Shown here piece by piece: positions 4,540 to 12,745 of a stretch of DNA of 24,633 bases. Position numbers and translations under genes: made by a program. A model generated the notes under the pieces. That model worked only from the letters and a program-made list of their open reading frames with translations, had not been told where the DNA came from and did no database searches. The DNA comes from a virus. Where the stretch lies: positions 1-24,633 of IMG/VR virus record IMGVR_UViG_3300006868_000108, one strand, 5' to 3'. How positions within the stretch are numbered: position 1 is the stretch's first letter; each line of letters opens with the position of its first letter.

Positions 4540-4571
4540 AAAAAGTCCTCTACTTTATTTAGCAGAGGACT
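4540..4571 (-). terminator. hairpin plus T-run after the coiled-coil gene
   Basis: The sequence holds a perfect 8-bp inverted repeat, AGTCCTCT and AGAGGACT, with arms at 4571-4564 and 4551-4544, around a 12-base loop. On the minus strand it is followed by TTTT. It begins 7 bases after the stop of the 58-residue gene and ends 11 bases before gp13. This fits a moderate intrinsic terminator: half the stem is G/C and the U-run is short. The loop contains the late promoter box of gp13. Confidence 0.65.
4556..4562 (-). promoter_or_regulatory. late promoter box CTAAATA upstream of gp13
   Basis: The minus strand reads CTAAATA followed by AA, the variant late-promoter core seen in cyanomyoviruses (T4: TATAAATA). 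It is in the intergenic gap, 27 bases before the gp13 ATG, and lies in the loop of the terminator hairpin. Transcription would start within or just after the 3' arm, so the new RNA could not form that hairpin. Confidence 0.6.
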
Positions 4572-4790: not shown

Positions 4791-5315
4791 TCAGATAAAA
4801 TTATAGTTAATCACAATCCGTGTGGACTGTGTTGGTTTACTGCTAGCATGATAAATCGATCCATCAAAAAATACACATCTACCTTGCTTTGGAGTAACTC
4901 TTTTTATTACTTGGTTACCATCAAAGAAGAACGTATCCCCATCAGAATCGTTCACATAATATAAACATACCATATGAGGTATGTCCATGTCAATATGGGG
5001 AGAATCATACTCTGTAGTTTTTGTAGTAGGAACCTGTAGAAAGGATCTCCCTCTAATAACAGTTCTGATTGAAATAGATTGCTTTTCACATGCTTCATAT
5101 ACCAAGGGCAATAGAAGACCCCAATAACCACTTTGGTATTTTGCTTCATGCATAAACAGGTGAGAAAATCCTAGGGTCTTTTCTGTTACATTTGTCTTGG
5201 TTAAATCATCATGAAATACCCAAGAAAATGAAGTATCGGAACTGATTATTTGATGAAGTAATTTTTGATAATTTTTACTGATGCAATCATCAAGAACTGT
5301 AATGTTGTTTACCAT
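4791..5315 (-). CDS. 2OG-Fe(II) dioxygenase, prolyl-hydroxylase-like
   Basis: This 174-residue protein has the facial-triad layout of 2OG/Fe(II) oxygenases: H107-x-D109 in SPHIDMDIPHMVCLYYVND, H156 in GSIYHASSK, and R166 (STRIVINYNF) as the likely 2OG-binding base. The GDTFFFDGNQVIKRVTPKQG segment forms the usual strand-turn leading to the second His. About 100 N-terminal residues are mostly helical and carry no other domain. Such short stand-alone enzymes are frequent in marine T4-like phages, and their substrate is generally unknown. The start ATG overlaps the preceding oxygenase gene by seven bases, so translation is probably coupled. It is the last gene of the enzyme island and is followed at once by a new late promoter. 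There is no signal peptide, so cytoplasmic action is expected. Confidence 0.82.
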   Translation of the reverse strand: MVNNITVLDDCISKNYQKLLHQIISSDTSFSWVFHDDLTKTNVTEKTLGFSHLFMHEAKYQSGYWGLLLPLVYEACEKQSISIRTVIRGRSFLQVPTTKTTEYDSPHIDMDIPHMVCLYYVNDSDGDTFFFDGNQVIKRVTPKQGRCVFFDGSIYHASSKPTQSTRIVINYNFI

Positions 5316-5953
5316 GTGAATGTATTAAATGTCAATCTAGGAGTTTCGGATTCCCATTTCTTTTCATCCCAATATGCAGAATGAAATAAACAGGATTCAT
5401 AAAATATAAACCTATTGTATTGATGATATTCAGTGTGATACTTATTCCAATCTTTTTGAGATGAATCTGATAAGATGCTGTTACGATATGAATACTGTTG
5501 AGAATACTCTTCTCCAGTTTTATATCGATAGAAAGATGTACCAGTAATATTACCTAATACTTCTTCATCGGTGTTTAAACAACATAGTCCTGCGTAGTTG
5601 ACTTCATCAATATGAGGAAGAACTTTTCCTATAGTATCGTATGCTTGGAATGAAAAAATAGGAGCAGAATAGTTTACTCTATAATCCTGATAATGTGTTT
5701 CTTTAATCCATCTAGTAAAATCTAGAAACTGAAATAAATTTATACCTGTCCTATGAATATATCCAGGATTAGAATGTTCTCCTTCTTTAATGTACTTACA
5801 TGACAATGCATAATCTCTTACTTGATTTGGAAACAAGAAAAAATTATCAACGATGACAAGTTTGTTATTTGATTTTCCAATATACTTCTCAGATACTTTT
5901 ACGTTTTTGTTAATTGAAAATATCTGAGGATCAATTACTTCCACCATATCCAT
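5309..5953 (-). CDS. 2OG-Fe(II) oxygenase-like protein (DUF6445-like)
   Basis: This 214-residue protein has the pattern of the DUF6445-type oxygenase-fold family: VIVDNFFLFPNQVRDYALS (about residues 33-51), PHIDEVNYAGLCCLN with H114 and D116 as metal ligands, TGTSFYRYKTGEEYS, then NRFIFYESCLFHSAYW with H191, and RLTFNTF with R206. The HxD...H...R set is complete, so it should bind Fe(II) and a keto-acid. Two starts are possible: ATG at 5953 or ATG at 5947, two codons later; neither has a clear Shine-Dalgarno and both overlap the upstream oxygenase. The family's substrate is unknown, though members are typical of phage and marine bacterial genomes. The sequence differs too much from its three neighbours to be a recent duplicate. 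Confidence 0.75.
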   Translation of the reverse strand: MDMVEVIDPQIFSINKNVKVSEKYIGKSNNKLVIVDNFFLFPNQVRDYALSCKYIKEGEHSNPGYIHRTGINLFQFLDFTRWIKETHYQDYRVNYSAPIFSFQAYDTIGKVLPHIDEVNYAGLCCLNTDEEVLGNITGTSFYRYKTGEEYSQQYSYRNSILSDSSQKDWNKYHTEYHQYNRFIFYESCLFHSAYWDEKKWESETPRLTFNTFTW

Positions 5954-6513
5954 CCAGTTAAAATAAATTTATCTTCAGTTTGAGATATTTCTCCCTTATG
6001 TAGGTGTGTATATCCAGCAGGGAAAATAACAGTTTTACCTTTCTTAGGTTTTACAGTATAGTCCTGGTGATAAAACATAGTTCCACCACCATCTTCAATA
6101 TCATTTAGATAAGTCATGAACACCATCGCTCTATCACATGCACTCATTTGTGCAGCATCAATATGCCACTGATAGTATCCTTCTCCTGGTTTGTACCATT
6201 GTATCTGTGGTAAATGTCTGGAGACAAATGTTCCACCAAACTCAAAGAATCTATATTTCTCTAAGTACTCATCTACAAATTTATTCAGTTCATTATGATA
6301 ATGATCCCATCTATATTTTTCTGGAGGACCAACTTTGTCTGCATCTTGCAACCAAAAATCAGTGCTCTTTTTTACATCGGGTTGAGATCTACCAGCAGGA
6401 CCAGATTTACCTGGGTAGGTTAATTTTTTATCATGAGCATCCCAGAATAGATTTAACAAACTATCACATATAGTGAGATCTGATAATTGATATTCTTCTA
6501 TAAATGTAGTCAT
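5935..6513 (-). CDS. 2OG-Fe(II) oxygenase, prolyl 4-hydroxylase type
   Basis: This 192-residue protein matches the minimal prolyl 4-hydroxylase-like fold. PGEGYYQWHIDA gives H117-x-D119, RAMVFMTYLNDIEDGGGTMFY is the typical core strand pair, VKPKKGKTVIFPAGYTHLHKG gives H170, and K182 in DKFILTGWIW is the expected 2OG-anchoring Lys. All catalytic positions are present. It probably hydroxylates a peptide, nucleoside or sugar substrate in the infected cell; which one cannot be told from sequence. The ATG overlaps the previous gene's stop by four bases (ATGA), so the reading is coupled. Unlike the neighbour at 4791-5315, it uses Lys rather than Arg to hold 2OG, which argues for independent origins of the paralogues. 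Confidence 0.85.
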   Translation of the reverse strand: MTTFIEEYQLSDLTICDSLLNLFWDAHDKKLTYPGKSGPAGRSQPDVKKSTDFWLQDADKVGPPEKYRWDHYHNELNKFVDEYLEKYRFFEFGGTFVSRHLPQIQWYKPGEGYYQWHIDAAQMSACDRAMVFMTYLNDIEDGGGTMFYHQDYTVKPKKGKTVIFPAGYTHLHKGEISQTEDKFILTGWIWWK

Positions 6514-7178
6514 ACAAAACCAAGTTCCCTATAAATTCCGTATTCTTTTTTTGATACTGACATAGAATCTGTTAGATCACCAGCAATACTTATTCTAACA
6601 TCATTACCATTATAAGTGCTAGTTTGGTGTGGAAGAAAATTTGGGAACATTGTAATGTATCCTGGTTTATTTTCAACCTCAATAGTTTGTCTATGATCAA
6701 AAGGATTATGATAAATTGTATTAGTATTTTCTGTAGATATTGTAATATGAAAACCATACAGGATATCTTCATTTACACCATGAGTATGAAGATTAATCTT
6801 TTGCCCAGTTCTCATTACATTAAACCAAGATTGTGCATATAAATGAGAATGCCAAGAAGCATTACTAATTGTTAATATATCAGTAAATAACTCTAACAAT
6901 TTATCCTTCATAAGTTTGACCATGTAATGATCAAAATCAAATACACTGAAGTATGGAAATTTAGAAGTAATTGAATTTTCCCCCAACCCAGTGTTTCCAT
7001 CTGTAGATGGTTTATCTTTAAATCTATCTAAAAGATATTGTTCTTTATTTAAAAGATAGTGCTTTATTTCATTACACTGATATGGAGTAAAACATGCACC
7101 TTCAATCATCGTGTATGTAAACTCTGGTGCAAATGGATTATTTGCTTTTTTACTTTTAAATTGATAAACGTTTTTCAT
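6510..7178 (-). CDS. 2OG-Fe(II) oxygenase (2OG-FeII_Oxy_5-like)
   Basis: This 222-residue protein counts from the ATG at 7178. That start overlaps the upstream stop as ATGA; a longer 234-residue reading from 7214 would overlap by 40 bases and lacks a ribosome-binding site. Features are QKINLHTHGVNEDILYGFHI (H131 and H133), a connecting strand region, GYITMFPNFLPHQTSTYNGN (H184) and VRISIAGDL (R195). This matches the putative 2OG-FeII oxygenase family PF13759, whose members show H-x-H, then FPS-x-L-x-H, then R-I-S. The N-terminal 110 residues are helical. It follows the U32-like/methyltransferase fusion directly, so it may act in the same pathway, but no substrate motif supports this. Confidence 0.8.
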   Translation of the reverse strand: MKNVYQFKSKKANNPFAPEFTYTMIEGACFTPYQCNEIKHYLLNKEQYLLDRFKDKPSTDGNTGLGENSITSKFPYFSVFDFDHYMVKLMKDKLLELFTDILTISNASWHSHLYAQSWFNVMRTGQKINLHTHGVNEDILYGFHITISTENTNTIYHNPFDHRQTIEVENKPGYITMFPNFLPHQTSTYNGNDVRISIAGDLTDSMSVSKKEYGIYRELGFV

Positions 7179-8860
7179 TTTTCTAATACTAAAATATACA
7201 ATCCATTCCACCAACTATTTTCATCTTCTGGAATAGTAGTTAAAATTTTACGTTGGAAAAGAACCTTTAAATTTTCCTCTTCAATCAAATCATTAGCAGA
7301 ATCTACAACCCCATCAAAATTTGCATCATCCAATACTAGGATAAATTTATCTTGAAGTAATGGTAAAATTGATTTTAAATTTTTATACTGATCCCAGTAT
7401 TCGTGTCCAGCATCATAGAAAATAATATTTGGTTTATCGCAAATATCTTTATCGGTTAATTCTGCAACATCTTTATTTGCAAAGGACCATCTTGGATTCT
7501 GAAATTTAGATAAGAACTCCATCGCTGGATCTTTAATTGTAGGTAAAAATATATCATCTCTGAATGGTTTAATATCAGGATCTTTAAAATTATCTACAGC
7601 AAATGCTCTGATTGGATTGTTGTCCAATGCTGCATAGAAAGTACTTCCAGTATAACAACCAAGTTCGAGATAAACTGAATCAGAATATGAACAAAGATTA
7701 TTAAGTAAGTGTCTAACCTTGTTTGATGTTAATCCTGGAATGAAGAATCTATCTTGGATAAAAGAACTTTCATTCTTAGATGCATTATCGATAGCAATCA
7801 ATGCCCTATTGACATATTCATCTAAAGTTCTGTCTTCTTTCCTCAATCTAGATTGCACAACTGAATCACAATAGTTACAATCCCAACAATCAAACTTACA
7901 TGATTTAATCTTCTCTCTCCATATGTCTATGGGTTTTTCTGTGATAGATGTATCTTCAATGTAAGAATTGAATTGAGGGAATAATAACTCATCATCATTA
8001 TTCCATCTCTCAATAATATCCATAGATTCTTTAAGACGCATAGCATTTTCTCTACCATGCATTTTAAATACATCAATACCTAGATCGAACATTTCTTCCC
8101 AATCCTTTTTCCAAGGTGGAAGGTTTGCTGCTTTTAAAGAAGATGCAGGATCACGCTCATCCCAAAGAGAACAAGATACTCTACTGATTGTATCATTAAA
8201 ATACTGAGGATTGTCAGGTCTTCTTGTTGTATTATAATGATAGTGTTCAGGCATAATTGGGCAACCTCCCCAACAACCTTCATTGGCAAGCATAGAAAAT
8301 CTAACTGGTAACCCAATGCTTGCACAATATTCCTTTGCTTGTTTTAATCTCAACAACTGATCTTTGTCTCTCATAAGATCTCTATCAAGATTAATATAAC
8401 TAAATCCTGCTTTCGCTAGAGATACAATATCATTTGCTTTAGATACTTCTCTAAGAATTGTATTTTTAATATAGAGATCTGGAAATGCTTTTTGGATCTG
8501 TCCAGTCAACATCCAAGTCGTATGGGGTAAAGTTACAATACGAACCCCACGTTCATACAAACCAGCAAAATTACCAATCCATACATCTAAGTTTTCTTGA
8601 TTAGGAATTACGTGGGGATTGTTGAAAGTAGCAGAAAGTGGAATACCAGTTTGCTCAGAAATATAAAGAGCATTGTATGTGGTAAATCTAATATCTTCTG
8701 CAAAAGTATCCCCCATTGCATCTTGCAAAAAAGGGGGCATACGACATGTGAAATAAAGATCAAAGATTAAATCTTTATGTTTGTTTAAAAATGGAATGAA
8801 AGTTTCAGTTACAAACTCCTCACTCAGCTTCGGATTGATTGGTAGAGAGAAAATCGCCAT
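7175..8860 (-). CDS. fusion: U32-like Fe-S domain + class I SAM methyltransferase
   Basis: This is a two-part protein of 561 residues. Residues 1-300 look like a TIM-barrel U32-family (COG0826-like) protein: ILREVSKANDIVSLAKAGFSYINL, then the Cys motif ANEGCWGGCP (C196, C200), a further C230, and VFKMHGRE (about 265-270), the counterpart of the family's K-x-x-GR motif. Residues 321-331 add a Cys cluster, CKFDCWDCNYC, suited to a metal or Fe-S site. Residues about 370-561 are a class I methyltransferase: YLELGCYTGSTF (397-408, SAM loop), AVDNF (421-425), FYDAGHEYWDQY (481-492), LVLDDAN (508-514). U32 relatives hydroxylate tRNA, rRNA or quinone precursors without O2; the substrate here is unknown. 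The start is uncertain: ATG 8860 lacks a Shine-Dalgarno and a TTG lies at 8869. The gene overlaps the 69-residue gene by 41 bases. Confidence 0.68.
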   Translation of the reverse strand: MAIFSLPINPKLSEEFVTETFIPFLNKHKDLIFDLYFTCRMPPFLQDAMGDTFAEDIRFTTYNALYISEQTGIPLSATFNNPHVIPNQENLDVWIGNFAGLYERGVRIVTLPHTTWMLTGQIQKAFPDLYIKNTILREVSKANDIVSLAKAGFSYINLDRDLMRDKDQLLRLKQAKEYCASIGLPVRFSMLANEGCWGGCPIMPEHYHYNTTRRPDNPQYFNDTISRVSCSLWDERDPASSLKAANLPPWKKDWEEMFDLGIDVFKMHGRENAMRLKESMDIIERWNNDDELLFPQFNSYIEDTSITEKPIDIWREKIKSCKFDCWDCNYCDSVVQSRLRKEDRTLDEYVNRALIAIDNASKNESSFIQDRFFIPGLTSNKVRHLLNNLCSYSDSVYLELGCYTGSTFYAALDNNPIRAFAVDNFKDPDIKPFRDDIFLPTIKDPAMEFLSKFQNPRWSFANKDVAELTDKDICDKPNIIFYDAGHEYWDQYKNLKSILPLLQDKFILVLDDANFDGVVDSANDLIEEENLKVLFQRKILTTIPEDENSWWNGLYILVLEK

Positions 8861-9029
8861 AACGGTCAATTACGTAATTAATAAATGCTGCTTCATGTTG
8901 CTCATCAATGATATGCTTATATTGTTCGCATAACTCTGTAATCTTTTCTACATTAACGTCAAGTTCATCAACGTCGTATTTTTTTGATACTTCAAAATGA
9001 ATAATAGGTGCTACTTCTAAATGTCTCAT
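8820..9029 (-). CDS. hypothetical protein, 69 aa
   Basis: This 69-residue acidic, mainly helical protein begins MRHLEVAPIIHFEV and has a helical body (VEKITELCEQYKHIIDEQHE). I do not recognise it. Support for its reality comes from context: a good AGGAGA ribosome-binding site nine bases before the ATG, a four-base ATGA overlap with the upstream 260-residue gene, and overlap of its 3' end with the fusion-enzyme gene, all in one direction. There is no signal peptide, membrane segment or metal-binding motif. It could be an accessory factor of the fibre-associated proteins upstream or of the enzymes downstream. Confidence 0.65.
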   Translation of the reverse strand: MRHLEVAPIIHFEVSKKYDVDELDVNVEKITELCEQYKHIIDEQHEAAFINYVIDRYGDFLSTNQSEAE

Positions 9030-9808
9030 TTTTTAGTTTCTCCTGAGGTAATCTTTGGTGGAACAACTTGATCTCCCAATTGGAACTGTTTAAGTTCTGG
9101 TTGAAGTTGTTTATTAATTTTATCTAGTCCACTTCCAATCATGGTAGAAAATCTAACAGCAATTTGAAGAGTTTGTATCTGATCCTCTTCAGGCATCATA
9201 GTGATAGATTCCATATTACCAGAACCGATCCTTCCATAAGAAACAATATCCATTGCTGCCTGTTTTCCTAAACGAGCAATCCAATATGCTCTTTCTTCAT
9301 TATCATTAAATTCAGTAAAATATTTAATATCTTCTTCTTTACTTACATACTTTTTAATAATATCTAAGAAGATTTGCATCTCCTTTTGAGATTGATAATA
9401 CTTTCTCTTCCATACAGTAATATCATAATCAATTTTACTAAGTTCAATTTCAATTACTTCTTTCTGAAGATCATCAGTTTCATTGTCATAATCTCTTTGA
9501 AGTATTTTCTTTTGAACTTCTGCCTTCTTTAAACTATGTTTAATTTCAACATAAGCATGATACCGAGTTTCAAGTTCTAAAAGTGCTTGTCGAGTTTTTC
9601 TCCATGGAGTCAACTGACTATCAGCAACAAAGTGTTCACATTGGTATTCGGTCATACCACTATTCATATGAAGTGCTCCTTCAAGCAACTTCCAATCTAG
9701 ATCTTGAATATTAAATTCATCGATAAACTCTTGACTAAGTTTAATATCTTTTATGTTTGAATTGACGATATTAGTTCCATCATTCAAATAATCAGAAATT
9801 GTACTCAT
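9026..9808 (-). CDS. alpha-helical protein, possible tail-fibre-associated factor
   Basis: This 260-residue, strongly helical and charged protein has a long coiled-coil-like region at about residues 75-160 (RQALLELETRYHAYVEIKHS, then Lys/Glu-rich heptads, then TVWKRKYYQSQKEMQIFLDI). A conserved-looking C-terminal motif, DIVSYGRIGSGNMESI, follows at about 190-205, and the tail is Pro/Lys-rich. I recall similar RxGRIGxGNMexi sequences in hypothetical proteins near fibre genes of cyanophage-like genomes, but no function is established. GAGGT eight bases upstream, inside the end of the previous gene, gives a good ribosome-binding site; the two genes overlap by 17 bases. Lying directly after a fibre gene and its partner, it is a candidate fibre chaperone or connector. 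This is inference from context and shape only. Confidence 0.6.
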   Translation of the reverse strand: MSTISDYLNDGTNIVNSNIKDIKLSQEFIDEFNIQDLDWKLLEGALHMNSGMTEYQCEHFVADSQLTPWRKTRQALLELETRYHAYVEIKHSLKKAEVQKKILQRDYDNETDDLQKEVIEIELSKIDYDITVWKRKYYQSQKEMQIFLDIIKKYVSKEEDIKYFTEFNDNEERAYWIARLGKQAAMDIVSYGRIGSGNMESITMMPEEDQIQTLQIAVRFSTMIGSGLDKINKQLQPELKQFQLGDQVVPPKITSGETKK

Positions 9809-10607
9809 TTACATTGACCTCATACTCTGGTTTTCTTTCCCAATCGGTTTCAGATACAGTTCTGCCCATTTCAACTGCTTGAGCAGTAGGCATCATTACC
9901 CCGAGATAATCCTCGTACAAAATATTTATATCCCAAATGCTAGCAGTATTTTTAAACTCTTTTAACAGTGTTTGCATATTTACTAACATGGTTGAAAGAT
10001 TATCTTGATATGATTCTGCTTTTTCCAAAATTTTATTGGCAAGTTCAGTTTTATCAATCCCTCTTTCGGTAGCGAGATAATCTAAGAATGGAGTGACATG
10101 TCCATCAGCACCTTGATAAGTTAACCACTCTTTTGCTTCATGCTTCTGAATTTCCCATGAAGATGCTTCGAGAGTATTTGTATTTCTTAGAATAATAAAT
10201 CTTCTTTCATATTCATCTTCAATTAACTCTTTAGCAAAAATTTTCATAAAGTCAAGAACAGTTGCTTTAATCTCATCCGTCATTTGGATTGCAACTTTTT
10301 TACCGTATTCTGGATAATCCAAATCTGCAAGAGTTTCATCTTGAGAAAGAACACCATCAGATTCCCAAACTTTAGCAACTTCTCTGACTTCTGAAAATAA
10401 TGCTGACCCTAAAGATGCTTGTTCTTCAGTAACTTCAATATATTTTCCAGTCCATAATTTATTAAAAACTCCAAATAGTTCGTCTGAGATTTTAATACAT
10501 GCCAAGTTTTGAAGTTCATACAACTCTTTGAATACCAATCTTGAATCGGTATCTTCTACAAATTGAGTTGTATCTAATGCTGACTCTTTAATAATTAGAT
10601 ATTTCAT
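9792..10607 (-). CDS. helical protein with DUF4376-like C-terminal part; candidate fibre-assembly factor
   Basis: This 271-residue acidic, mainly helical protein has a segment EIQKHEAKEWLTY, then HVTPFLDYLATERGIDKTEL, then AESYQDNLSTMLVNMQTLLK (about residues 150-215). That follows the pattern of the DUF4376/tail-fibre-assembly C-terminal helical domain found in many phages (x-x-Q-K-x-E-A, T-P-x-L-x-x-L-A, A-x-x-Y-x-x-x-L). It begins four bases after the stop of the 700-residue tail fibre, the classical place for a fibre assembly protein such as T4 gp38. No Shine-Dalgarno is visible, so translation may rely on coupling to the fibre gene. The role as a folding or attachment factor for the upstream fibre is inferred from position and the weak domain resemblance. 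Confidence 0.6.
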   Translation of the reverse strand: MKYLIIKESALDTTQFVEDTDSRLVFKELYELQNLACIKISDELFGVFNKLWTGKYIEVTEEQASLGSALFSEVREVAKVWESDGVLSQDETLADLDYPEYGKKVAIQMTDEIKATVLDFMKIFAKELIEDEYERRFIILRNTNTLEASSWEIQKHEAKEWLTYQGADGHVTPFLDYLATERGIDKTELANKILEKAESYQDNLSTMLVNMQTLLKEFKNTASIWDINILYEDYLGVMMPTAQAVEMGRTVSETDWERKPEYEVNVNEYNF

Positions 10608-10611
10608 TTTA

Positions 10612-12714
10612 TTAGAATGGTTGAGTTGTAGTTATAGATGCAGATGCCGACGAACATGCTGCTGAAGATTGTCCATAGTGTCCTTTTGGTCTAGTTGCAA
10701 ATCCCATTGTGGTAATAGAATCATTTGAGTATAACCATTTTTCAGTATGGTTATTCTGCTGACCATCGAAGTCACCTAACTTATAACCCCAATCTTGTCC
10801 CATCTCCATATTTTCTTCACCAGCTGCTCTTGCTCTGTTATAGTTTGAAAGTGCAGCACCATCAGAATCACGAACTTTTCTAACAGGTGTTGTTACGTTA
10901 TTGCTAGTACCAATATAAAAATGACCCCACTTAGTAGGAAGTGCCTTACACCAACCTCTATTATTACCAGCAAAGTTTAAGTTAGTCCAAGCATCATTAC
11001 TATACGTAAGATACTGCTGAACACCATTGGACCATGACATATATGCTCTTGTTTCTCCACCAACACCTGCAACGAAGTCAGAAGAACTTCCTGACGAAGT
11101 AGTAGAGTACATGATCTCAGTACCAAAATGCAGTTTATTAGTTACTGAACTACCACCACCAGTTATGTATCCACCTTGACCAATTTGATTAGTTGCACAA
11201 CCTGAGTCATTTCTACCAACGCTCATTGCCCAACCACCAGTTACACCATACCCCATAACTGCTTTGGGGTTATCTCCTTCATATCCATAGGTATATTGAG
11301 AGAATCTAGAATCACCTTGAGTTCTACAAATACCAGTATTTAAATTATAACTTGAAGTGTGTGATGAGTTTCCAGCATAAGAGTTTACTGTGCCATGAAC
11401 ATATGCATTATAATCAGACCATGTTCCGTCACAATATGCTGCTGCTCTATCTAACTGTTCTCCACAATAGAATGTAGTATCAGTAGTATGCCATGTCTTA
11501 TTAAGTGATCTCCAAGGTTGAGATCCTTTATAACCTCCACCAATATATCCATGAGTAATAATACTTCTATATCTATATCCACTTAATGGTCCAGTTGGAA
11601 CTGTTGCTCCAGGATATGACCAAAATGCTCCGCCAGGTCCATCAGATACAAGGTATGCACCTCTGGTTTCATCTGTCTGTTCAGGCAGTGGAGTTAGAGG
11701 ATCACCGTTTTTGTAATAATCTCCTCCACCTACAAGGTCAATGTTGCCTTGATTGATAACAAGTTTTCTTGGCAAATTGTTAGCATTGTTTGAACCAACA
11801 TTTGCAGTGGTATTGATTCCAATACCACCATTAAGCATATGGATTTGCTCTCTATACGATGTTCCATTATTTGCCATCGTAGAGAACTCAACTCTCCCTC
11901 CATTGGGGAAGAAGCGAATATATGCCTGACCAATAGCACTATTTAATCTTGGGAAGTAACTATTAGAACTATCTGCAGCACTTGTTGGATATGATGTTGT
12001 ATAATAATTGGTAACATTCATACCAATACCACCACCATCCCAGGTTCTTCCTGGTTCCGATACCCATAACTGCATGTTAATTTCACCAGTTCCACCACCA
12101 TTGTTTCCTGATGGTAGTGTTAATCTCATGGAAGTATTACCATGAGCTCCATAAAGATGTAGTAGTTTTCTTGGATTATTTGAGTTAATACCAACAGCAC
12201 CACCAAAAGTAGCAGTTAAAATATTAGTATTTGATGAGTTTCTAACAAACCAGAAATTTGCATTATCCGAGTAGTTGGGTCCATCATAACCCACATACAT
12301 ATTTCCATTTCCAGTCAATGCTCCACCTTCTCCAAAATGAATTGCTGCAGGAGTGGTAGAACCTGAGGGACTGGTAATATGCATCTGACCAGTAACTGCC
12401 AGTTGCTTATCAGTAGCGTTTGGGTTTACACCAATATTGACAAATCCATTATAACGAGCAAGATCGACACGACCAGAAGCATCTACTGCAATACTAGGAA
12501 TACCCGAAACATCATTAACTGAGAATATAATTCCAGAAGTCAGATTATTATTGATAGAAAATAACTGCCCTTGATTTCCTTCAAATGAAATAGTATTGTC
12601 ATCAAGAACTCGCAAAGAAATTGGAACATTTCCTTGTCCTACAAAAGAAATCTCTGGTAATGCCGTTTGCCCTCGATTAGGCGTTATAAGAATGTCCTTA
12701 TCGGAATTCGCCAT
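10612..12714 (-). CDS. tail fibre protein, 700 aa
   Basis: This 700-residue Gly/Asn/Ser/Thr-rich fibre begins with an N-terminal anchor-like part (about residues 1-90). Beta-repeat stem segments of the VGIN..NP..L.L..G kind follow: FVNIGVNPNATDKQLAVTGQ (91-110), GGAVGINSNNPRKLLHLYGA (171-190) and GIGINTTANVGSNN (297-310). From about residue 378, GYRYRSIITHGYIGGGYKGS begins a long C-terminal tip with repeating Gly-Gly/aromatic units (GTWSDYNAY, GGWAMSVG, GRNDSGCATNQIGQGGYITG) ending in FATRPKGHYGQSSAAC. I recognise this tip type from cyanophage fibres, where it is thought to form the receptor-binding end. Several Cys occur in the tip. It is driven by its own late promoter and followed by a candidate assembly factor. 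Receptor binding is inferred. Confidence 0.82.
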   Translation of the reverse strand: MANSDKDILITPNRGQTALPEISFVGQGNVPISLRVLDDNTISFEGNQGQLFSINNNLTSGIIFSVNDVSGIPSIAVDASGRVDLARYNGFVNIGVNPNATDKQLAVTGQMHITSPSGSTTPAAIHFGEGGALTGNGNMYVGYDGPNYSDNANFWFVRNSSNTNILTATFGGAVGINSNNPRKLLHLYGAHGNTSMRLTLPSGNNGGGTGEINMQLWVSEPGRTWDGGGIGMNVTNYYTTSYPTSAADSSNSYFPRLNSAIGQAYIRFFPNGGRVEFSTMANNGTSYREQIHMLNGGIGINTTANVGSNNANNLPRKLVINQGNIDLVGGGDYYKNGDPLTPLPEQTDETRGAYLVSDGPGGAFWSYPGATVPTGPLSGYRYRSIITHGYIGGGYKGSQPWRSLNKTWHTTDTTFYCGEQLDRAAAYCDGTWSDYNAYVHGTVNSYAGNSSHTSSYNLNTGICRTQGDSRFSQYTYGYEGDNPKAVMGYGVTGGWAMSVGRNDSGCATNQIGQGGYITGGGSSVTNKLHFGTEIMYSTTSSGSSSDFVAGVGGETRAYMSWSNGVQQYLTYSNDAWTNLNFAGNNRGWCKALPTKWGHFYIGTSNNVTTPVRKVRDSDGAALSNYNRARAAGEENMEMGQDWGYKLGDFDGQQNNHTEKWLYSNDSITTMGFATRPKGHYGQSSAACSSASASITTTQPF

Positions 12715-12737: not shown

Positions 12738-12745
12738 TATTTATA
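12738..12745 (-). promoter_or_regulatory. late promoter TATAAATA upstream of the tail fibre
   Basis: There is an exact match to the T4 late promoter core TATAAATA on the minus strand, in the 31-base gap between the third LamG gene and the 700-residue fibre, 23 bases before the fibre ATG. This is the only longer intergenic gap in this half of the window, which supports function. Confidence 0.7.

Follow-up and report, generated by a model that had tools for sequence, protein, structure and literature searches.

The stretch analysed here (the window) is a 24.6-kb virus fragment (24,633 nucleotides; IMG/VR record IMGVR_UViG_3300006868_000108), in which an ORF combining a U32-like half and a methyltransferase half lies within a series of minus-strand genes. 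The genes and features of the locus, in order of transcription and with the parts of the fusion listed after it, are as follows.

12738-12744, minus strand: ATAAATA, resembling a T4-type late promoter, 30 nt ahead of o700
10612-12714, minus strand: o700, Gly/Tyr/Trp-rich, candidate substrate; C-terminal half phrog_1417, 'sericin 1 precursor-like'
9792-10607, minus strand: o271; phrog_1604, T4-GC 352
9026-9808, minus strand: o260, upstream neighbour of the fusion; phrog_1409, T4-GC 353
7175-8860, minus strand: U32-like/methyltransferase fusion, 561 aa plus stop, ATG at 8860; phrog_1458, T4-GC 354
7826-8860, minus strand: N-terminal U32-type domain with C-terminal Cys extension, residues 1-345 (AlphaFold2, 5d88 match, hhalign)
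8261-8275, minus strand: CX3C motif C196-C200 (NEGCWGGCP), just past barrel strand 7, invariant in 32/32
8171-8173, minus strand: C230, by alignment the second Cys of the classic U32 C-x3-C pair
8051-8065, minus strand: KMHGR, on barrel strand 8, by alignment the counterpart of the U32 K-I-E-G-R motif
7868-7900, minus strand: Cx3Cx2Cx2C cluster C321-C331, not in classic U32 proteins but in the divergent U32 clade (alignment, 32/32)
7178-7780, minus strand: class I SAM methyltransferase domain, residues 361-561 (PF13578; MycF/TomG/TrmR, Z 15.6-15.9)
7646-7666, minus strand: SAM motif E399xG401x3G405, at least 93% conserved in 27 non-redundant fusions
7325-7330, with D483 at 7412-7414, minus strand: D511-D512, conserved, at plausible positions for the metal site of COMT/MycF/TrmR O-methyltransferases
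6510-7178, minus strand: 2OG-Fe(II) oxygenase (PF13759), its ATG overlapping the fusion stop (ATGA)
5935-6513, minus strand: 2OG-Fe(II) oxygenase (PF13640)
5309-5953, minus strand: DUF6445 protein (Pfam); the same family adjoins the bacterial U32-like gene in L087
4791-5315, minus strand: 2OG-Fe(II) oxygenase (PF13640); its family commonly goes under the name endonuclease V
4556-4562, minus strand: CTAAATA, late-promoter-like, at the cassette end, 34 nt ahead of gp13

The 561-residue ORF reported in the initial annotation proved real and is on the minus strand: the plus strand across 7175-8860 is interrupted by many stops, and the minus-strand product matches phrog_1458 at 1e-233 as well as phage relatives. 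The motifs described for it were located at residues 193-201 (NEGCWGGCP), 266-270 (KMHGR) and 321-331 (CKFDCWDCNYC). Transcription runs from a 3240-aa virion-type protein through three LamG-domain ORFs, o700, o271 and o260 to the fusion, and then through two 2OG-Fe(II) oxygenases, the DUF6445 protein and a third 2OG oxygenase to gp13, gp14, gp15, the terminase small subunit and a virion structural protein. With tail-fibre-type and LamG genes upstream and gp13, gp14, gp15 and the terminase small subunit downstream, the earlier placement in a late region holds; since about one late-promoter-like motif is expected by chance near gene starts, ATAAATA and CTAAATA are weak evidence for it. From its position and composition o700 is probably a virion protein, and W495, Y516, Y600 and Y644 are invariant in its C-domain, for which AlphaFold2 gave a beta-rich but unusable model (mean pLDDT 40). 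The 3240-aa protein (window:14903-24625) has a sub-threshold F510_1955-type glycosylhydrolase match at residues 664-794 (1.5e-9). Oxygenases of phrog_274 (window:4791-5315; L081:13689-14198) carry the label 'DNA endonuclease V' (denV) in many cyanophages, which looks like an annotation error that has spread.

Databases already hold the fusion family, as a hypothetical protein, and literature searches found no paper on a U32-methyltransferase fusion; new here are the domain assignment, the recognition of a divergent U32 clade that has a second Cys cluster, and the cassette. The conserved N-terminus begins at residue 1-4, so that GenBank entries beginning near residue 43-46 (e.g. PSSM4_035) are truncated. 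Deposited starts that lie about 40 residues or more too far inside (L081:12127, PSSM4_035, S-CAM4, S-H25, S-RIM2) lose conserved barrel strands, the first two in several records, and for the same reason phrog_1458 begins at residue 49.

An AlphaFold2 model built from 26 relatives (mean pLDDT 78) showed eight strands (4-7, 32-38, 75-78, 108-111, 130-133, 155-158, 187-191 and 264-266) alternating with helices over residues 4-266, the layout of a TIM barrel (barrel region 1-290), and a separate Rossmann-type domain from ~361. In the model the NEGCWGGCP loop follows strand 7 and KMHGR sits on strand 8; the Cys-bearing loops (195-207, 217-249 and 292-339) have pLDDT below 50. Of the solved structures, the U32 protein Mk0906 (5d88; Z 16.1, rmsd 3.4, 225 residues) fits the N-terminal half best, with other barrels among the structure matches listed (CutC, MTHFR) below it at Z 13.9-14.4, which supports the U32-type barrel proposed initially; a different fold did not emerge.

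By sequence the relationship is more remote. PF01136 had no match in the window, nor in an hmmscan of the fusion up to E 1, and PDB searches with the fusion, as single sequence and as profile, gave no match at E 0.01. A weak match (E 0.1) led from the fusion to a Providencia phage protein, and that phage U32 protein matches PF01136 at 4.6e-11. Stand-alone bacterial relatives (L085-L087) were found at 39-41% identity in a genome scan, and searching the phylum of L085 with a profile yielded a more distant set with NE-x-C-x3-C ... C ... K-x-x-GR ... Cx3Cx2Cx2C; stand-alone members of the divergent clade exceed the PF01136 cut-off (4.6e-11 to 1.7e-6). In hhalign, the N-domain profile (32 sequences, intermediate sequences removed) matched the divergent U32 clade at 99.6% (E 7e-24), where reversed and shuffled controls did not exceed 6.6%; directly against six classic U32 proteins it reached just 51% (E 1.5e-4), and the intermediate divergent set matched classic U32 at 98.9%. 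This chain of profiles, from N-domain through divergent clade to classic U32, indicates at the sequence level that the N-terminal half is a divergent U32 relative and not a TrhP or RlhA orthologue.

Every one of 32 non-redundant N-domains (<80% identical) has all seven Cys residues named in the initial annotation (C196, C200, C230, C321, C325, C328 and C331), but C39 and C179 are not invariant. D159, R164, E194, H206, K266 and R270 are invariant too. C39 was rejected as a UbiV-like cluster ligand, S, Y or T being found there in five of the 32. In place of the essential C-x6-C pair (C170 and C177 in TrhP) and the later Cys pair of TrhP-type proteins the fusion has CX3C (C196, C200) and the single C230, and no Glu stands at a spacing equal to that of the essential TrhP E162; E194, close to C196, is perhaps not its counterpart. 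Such altered spacing, with no clear equivalent of the essential Glu, would suit a U32-like half that is no longer catalytic and binds or positions the substrate for the methyltransferase. We regard this as quite improbable given the set of invariant Cys and other residues and the persistence of stand-alone copies that lack a methyltransferase.

The sole Pfam-A match of the fusion is PF13578 (Methyltransf_24; residues 398-512, E 5.5e-6, above cut-off), and an NCBIfam scan gave nothing beyond a sub-threshold glycine/sarcosine methyltransferase match. Among solved structures, MycF, TomG, TrmR (5zw3, Z 15.6) and COMT-type enzymes tied near Z 15-16 as matches to the C-terminal half. In the 27 non-redundant fusions E399, G401 and G405 of ExGxxxG and the acidic D423 after strand 2 are conserved, and so are D483, D511, D512 and N514, at positions plausible for metal-binding Asp residues; D483, D511 and D512 may form a metal site. 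The complete methyltransferase domain described earlier is borne out by the Pfam match and the class I COMT/MycF/TrmR-like fold.

The initial annotation further suggested that the fusion hydroxylates and then methylates one target, possibly tRNA. The pairing is chemically reasonable, with TrmR among the tied folds, and we keep it, although we infer the order and both reactions. TrhP and RlhA, both U32 proteins, are required for prephenate-dependent pyrimidine C5-hydroxylation in RNA, and their conserved Cys residues are essential (PMC6599085), so that TrhP-like 5-hydroxylation of tRNA or rRNA followed by TrmR-like O-methylation to mo5U could be envisaged. An RNA target is nevertheless distinctly unlikely: the gene lies in a late structural locus with virion-region partners, and is strictly co-inherited with o700 and o260 (see below), no tRNA gene was found in the window and no translation gene beside the fusion there, and PF16325 (Peptidase_U32_C), which follows the U32 domain in TrhP, is absent from the Pfam-A scan of the fusion.

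Full-length relatives, sought among phages as had been suggested, occur in 123 phage records, which without exception come from cyanophages and include many isolates of a few species, and 483 IMG/VR stretches encode a relative; being so widespread, the fusion is not an unusual phage enzyme in the sense of rare, as first thought. Divergent full-length fusions are present in other viral contigs (L167-L177, L179), with N-domains 38-41% identical to L087, and L178 is a stand-alone viral copy without the methyltransferase. The family is rare in bacteria, with relatives (E 1e-8) in 7/345 genomes in the phylum of L085, mostly of the distant set, and in 1/298 in that of L087. In the N-domain tree stand-alone forms cluster (96/96) on long branches, and the tree does not fix the direction of change. 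A 'Euryarchaeota' relative (L084; 73% identical, on a 3-kb contig) was interpreted as phage sequence that had been binned with an archaeal MAG.

The bacterial relatives differ in their neighbours: the stand-alone L085 is flanked by an RTX protein and a C39-type ABC exporter, L087 adjoins DUF6445 and a radical SAM/SPASM protein, and L086 is near APS kinase/sulfate adenylyltransferase-like genes and a GNAT gene. On the last, a Syntrophaceae contig, L086:1-2820 holds a tandem pair of U32-like genes plus a shorter ORF whose NAGC-x3-C loop is similar; GNAT, permease and CysD/CysN-like sulfate-activation genes come next. In the distant U32 clade, the divergent U32 genes of L096 and L098 adjoin a phenylacetate-CoA ligase-like gene (judged by eye alone), a hint that this branch may have an aromatic substrate.

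Among phage relatives, the nearest with known genomic context is P0002, the U32 protein found in RB69-type phages, which have arabinosylated 5-hydroxycytosine in their DNA. P0002 matches the cyanophage fusion back at 4e-4, and at L083:5494-7788 in Providencia phage PSTCR6 its gene adjoins chorismate mutase (PF01817, 5.5e-10) and a thymidylate-synthase (TS) homologue. The fusion could accordingly be imagined to modify bases of phage DNA, but the match is distant (25%), the fusion gene lies in a late virion block and not among nucleotide metabolism genes, and PF01817, present in PSTCR6, was detected neither in P-SSM4 and S-CAM4, the fusion phages examined, nor in the window, itself a fragment; we consider a DNA target very unlikely. 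Serratia phage LC53 and Klebsiella phage PWKp16 were also among the RB69-type U32 matches. Chorismate mutase makes prephenate, the metabolite required for U32 hydroxylation, and the 5-hydroxyl of arabinosyl-cytosine phages is currently credited to the TS homologue alone; with chorismate mutase encoded beside the RB69-type U32 gene, the U32 protein together with prephenate may supply that hydroxyl. The word 'peptidase' is absent from PMC13390438.

We then considered which genes accompany the fusion. The o700-o271-o260-fusion block is kept in cyanophages and in most of the distant viruses, o260 being the nearest recognised upstream gene at 109 of 136 fusion loci. Profile searches of 22 complete cyanophage genomes, a non-random set reached via matches to the fusion, o260, gp15 or halogenase, found the fusion, o260 and the o700 C-domain in the same nine genomes and none of them in the same other 13 (Fisher 2e-6, phage kinship not corrected for). 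At the 89 loci with 3 kb downstream, with families confirmed by Pfam, the downstream cassette contains a 2OG oxygenase in 84 cases (starting at most 60 nt from the fusion stop in 63), DUF6445 in 17 and a tryptophan halogenase in six. A halogenase in L044 matches PF04820 at E 5e-96. Phages lacking the fusion carry other genes in the fibre-to-neck slot: two halogenases and several 2OG oxygenases in syn9, a halogenase and 2OG oxygenases in Sf-CH11, and heptose and carbamoyltransferase genes in S-CAM3. The fusion was found in none of 10 further halogenase-bearing cyanophage isolates examined. The stretch from tail fibre to gp13 in S-CAM3, syn9 and Sf-CH11 (L180, L181 and L182) is a slot for exchangeable modification cassettes. 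A cassette beside another fusion includes a 4Fe-4S ferredoxin-like ORF (L160:10324-11109; Fer4, 4e-5), a possible electron donor.

The sugar genes of S-CAM3 at this same locus, the presence of the sugar O-methyltransferase MycF among the tied folds and the sulfate-activation-type and GNAT neighbours of bacterial L086 would fit an enzyme tailoring a glycan or small molecule, that is, a sugar or cofactor hydroxylated or methylated and then put on the virion or host surface. We think this unlikely, as no glycosyltransferase or nucleotide-sugar gene was recognised in the window and the partners of the fusion are conserved virion-region genes and 2OG-Fe(II) oxygenases. Co-inheritance with a probable virion protein, in a setting of oxygenase genes, suggests instead that the fusion decorates the phage's own tail proteins and not host tRNA.

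Our tentative proposal, to which we give somewhat less than an even chance, is that the fusion belongs to a late cassette for virion decoration and is a bifunctional modifying enzyme, which hydroxylates and then O-methylates an o700-type protein or its glycan. This builds on the domain homology, the conserved Cys residues, the gene order, the strict co-occurrence and the swapping of cassettes at one locus. The U32-type half would hold an Fe-S centre at C196, C200 and C230 and, at C321-C331, an extra four-Cys site and, with one or two Fe-S clusters, probably carry out O2-independent hydroxylation; the fused class I methyltransferase would probably O-methylate the newly made hydroxyl. The target would most likely be the co-encoded Gly/Tyr/Trp-rich virion or tail protein o700, at a side chain or an attached glycan; o700-type targets would be modified further by the neighbouring 2OG-Fe(II) oxygenases and DUF6445, joined in some phages by tryptophan halogenases. 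Virion decoration explains why the gene lies in a late region, why it is linked to a virion-region protein and keeps company with hydroxylases, and why whole cassettes replace one another at one locus; a role on tRNA would lead one to expect none of this. Against it, o700 is named as substrate by association, and the partner might just as well be o271 or o260; the lack of an obvious E162 counterpart and a first Cys pair of CX3C instead of CX6C leave room for other chemistry. The hosts of cyanophages, moreover, are oxygenic, which makes an O2-independent Fe-S hydroxylase a less than obvious choice, and the decoration model offers no explanation for this.

A broader version, doubtful but with some real chance of being right, is that cyanophages carry swappable cassettes that add hydroxyl, methoxy and halogen groups to their own adhesins, with the fusion acting on protein and the tail as the halogenase substrate. 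If so, the fusion would be the first known case of a U32 enzyme with a protein substrate, the natural substrate of cyanophage halogenases would be the tail, and phages would vary adhesins chemically as well as by sequence, which matters for host recognition and for the reasons why halogenases and 2OG oxygenases count as auxiliary metabolic genes. In any case the domains of a widespread hypothetical cyanophage gene are now assigned and its proposed role can be tested, a U32 clade bearing an additional Cys cluster is described, and virion proteins are indicated as the target of many unexplained oxygenases and halogenases of marine T4-like phages.

Compared with known systems, the closest are the phrog_1458/T4-GC 354 proteins (PSSM4_035, Syn33_045), which belong to the same family over its full length at 54-57% identity and are annotated merely as hypothetical, several from starts that omit the first two barrel strands. 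The fusion resembles TrhP, RlhA and UbiU/UbiV (PF01136) in its TIM barrel, the Cys-rich loop after strand 7 and K-x-x-G-R on strand 8, but differs from them in having CX3C and not CX6C, one later Cys and not two, no detectable PF01136, an additional Cx3Cx2Cx2C and a methyltransferase. The U32 'peptidase' of RB69-type phages (Mosigvirus, LC53, PSTCR6 P0002) is likewise phage-borne, with a C-terminal Cys cluster and reciprocal weak matches, but is a stand-alone protein, ~25% identical, whose gene stands with chorismate mutase in a locus for the arabinosyl-cytosine DNA pathway. B. subtilis TrmR and the MycF/COMT-type O-methyltransferases share the fold of the C-terminal half (Z 15.6-15.9), in which Asp residues stand at plausible metal-site positions, whereas by sequence the fusion has no PDB match at E 0.01. 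Finally, the cyanophage tryptophan halogenase loci (syn9, Sf-CH11) occupy the same tail-fibre/neck slot in the same company of 2OG oxygenases, with flavin halogenases in place of the U32-methyltransferase fusion.
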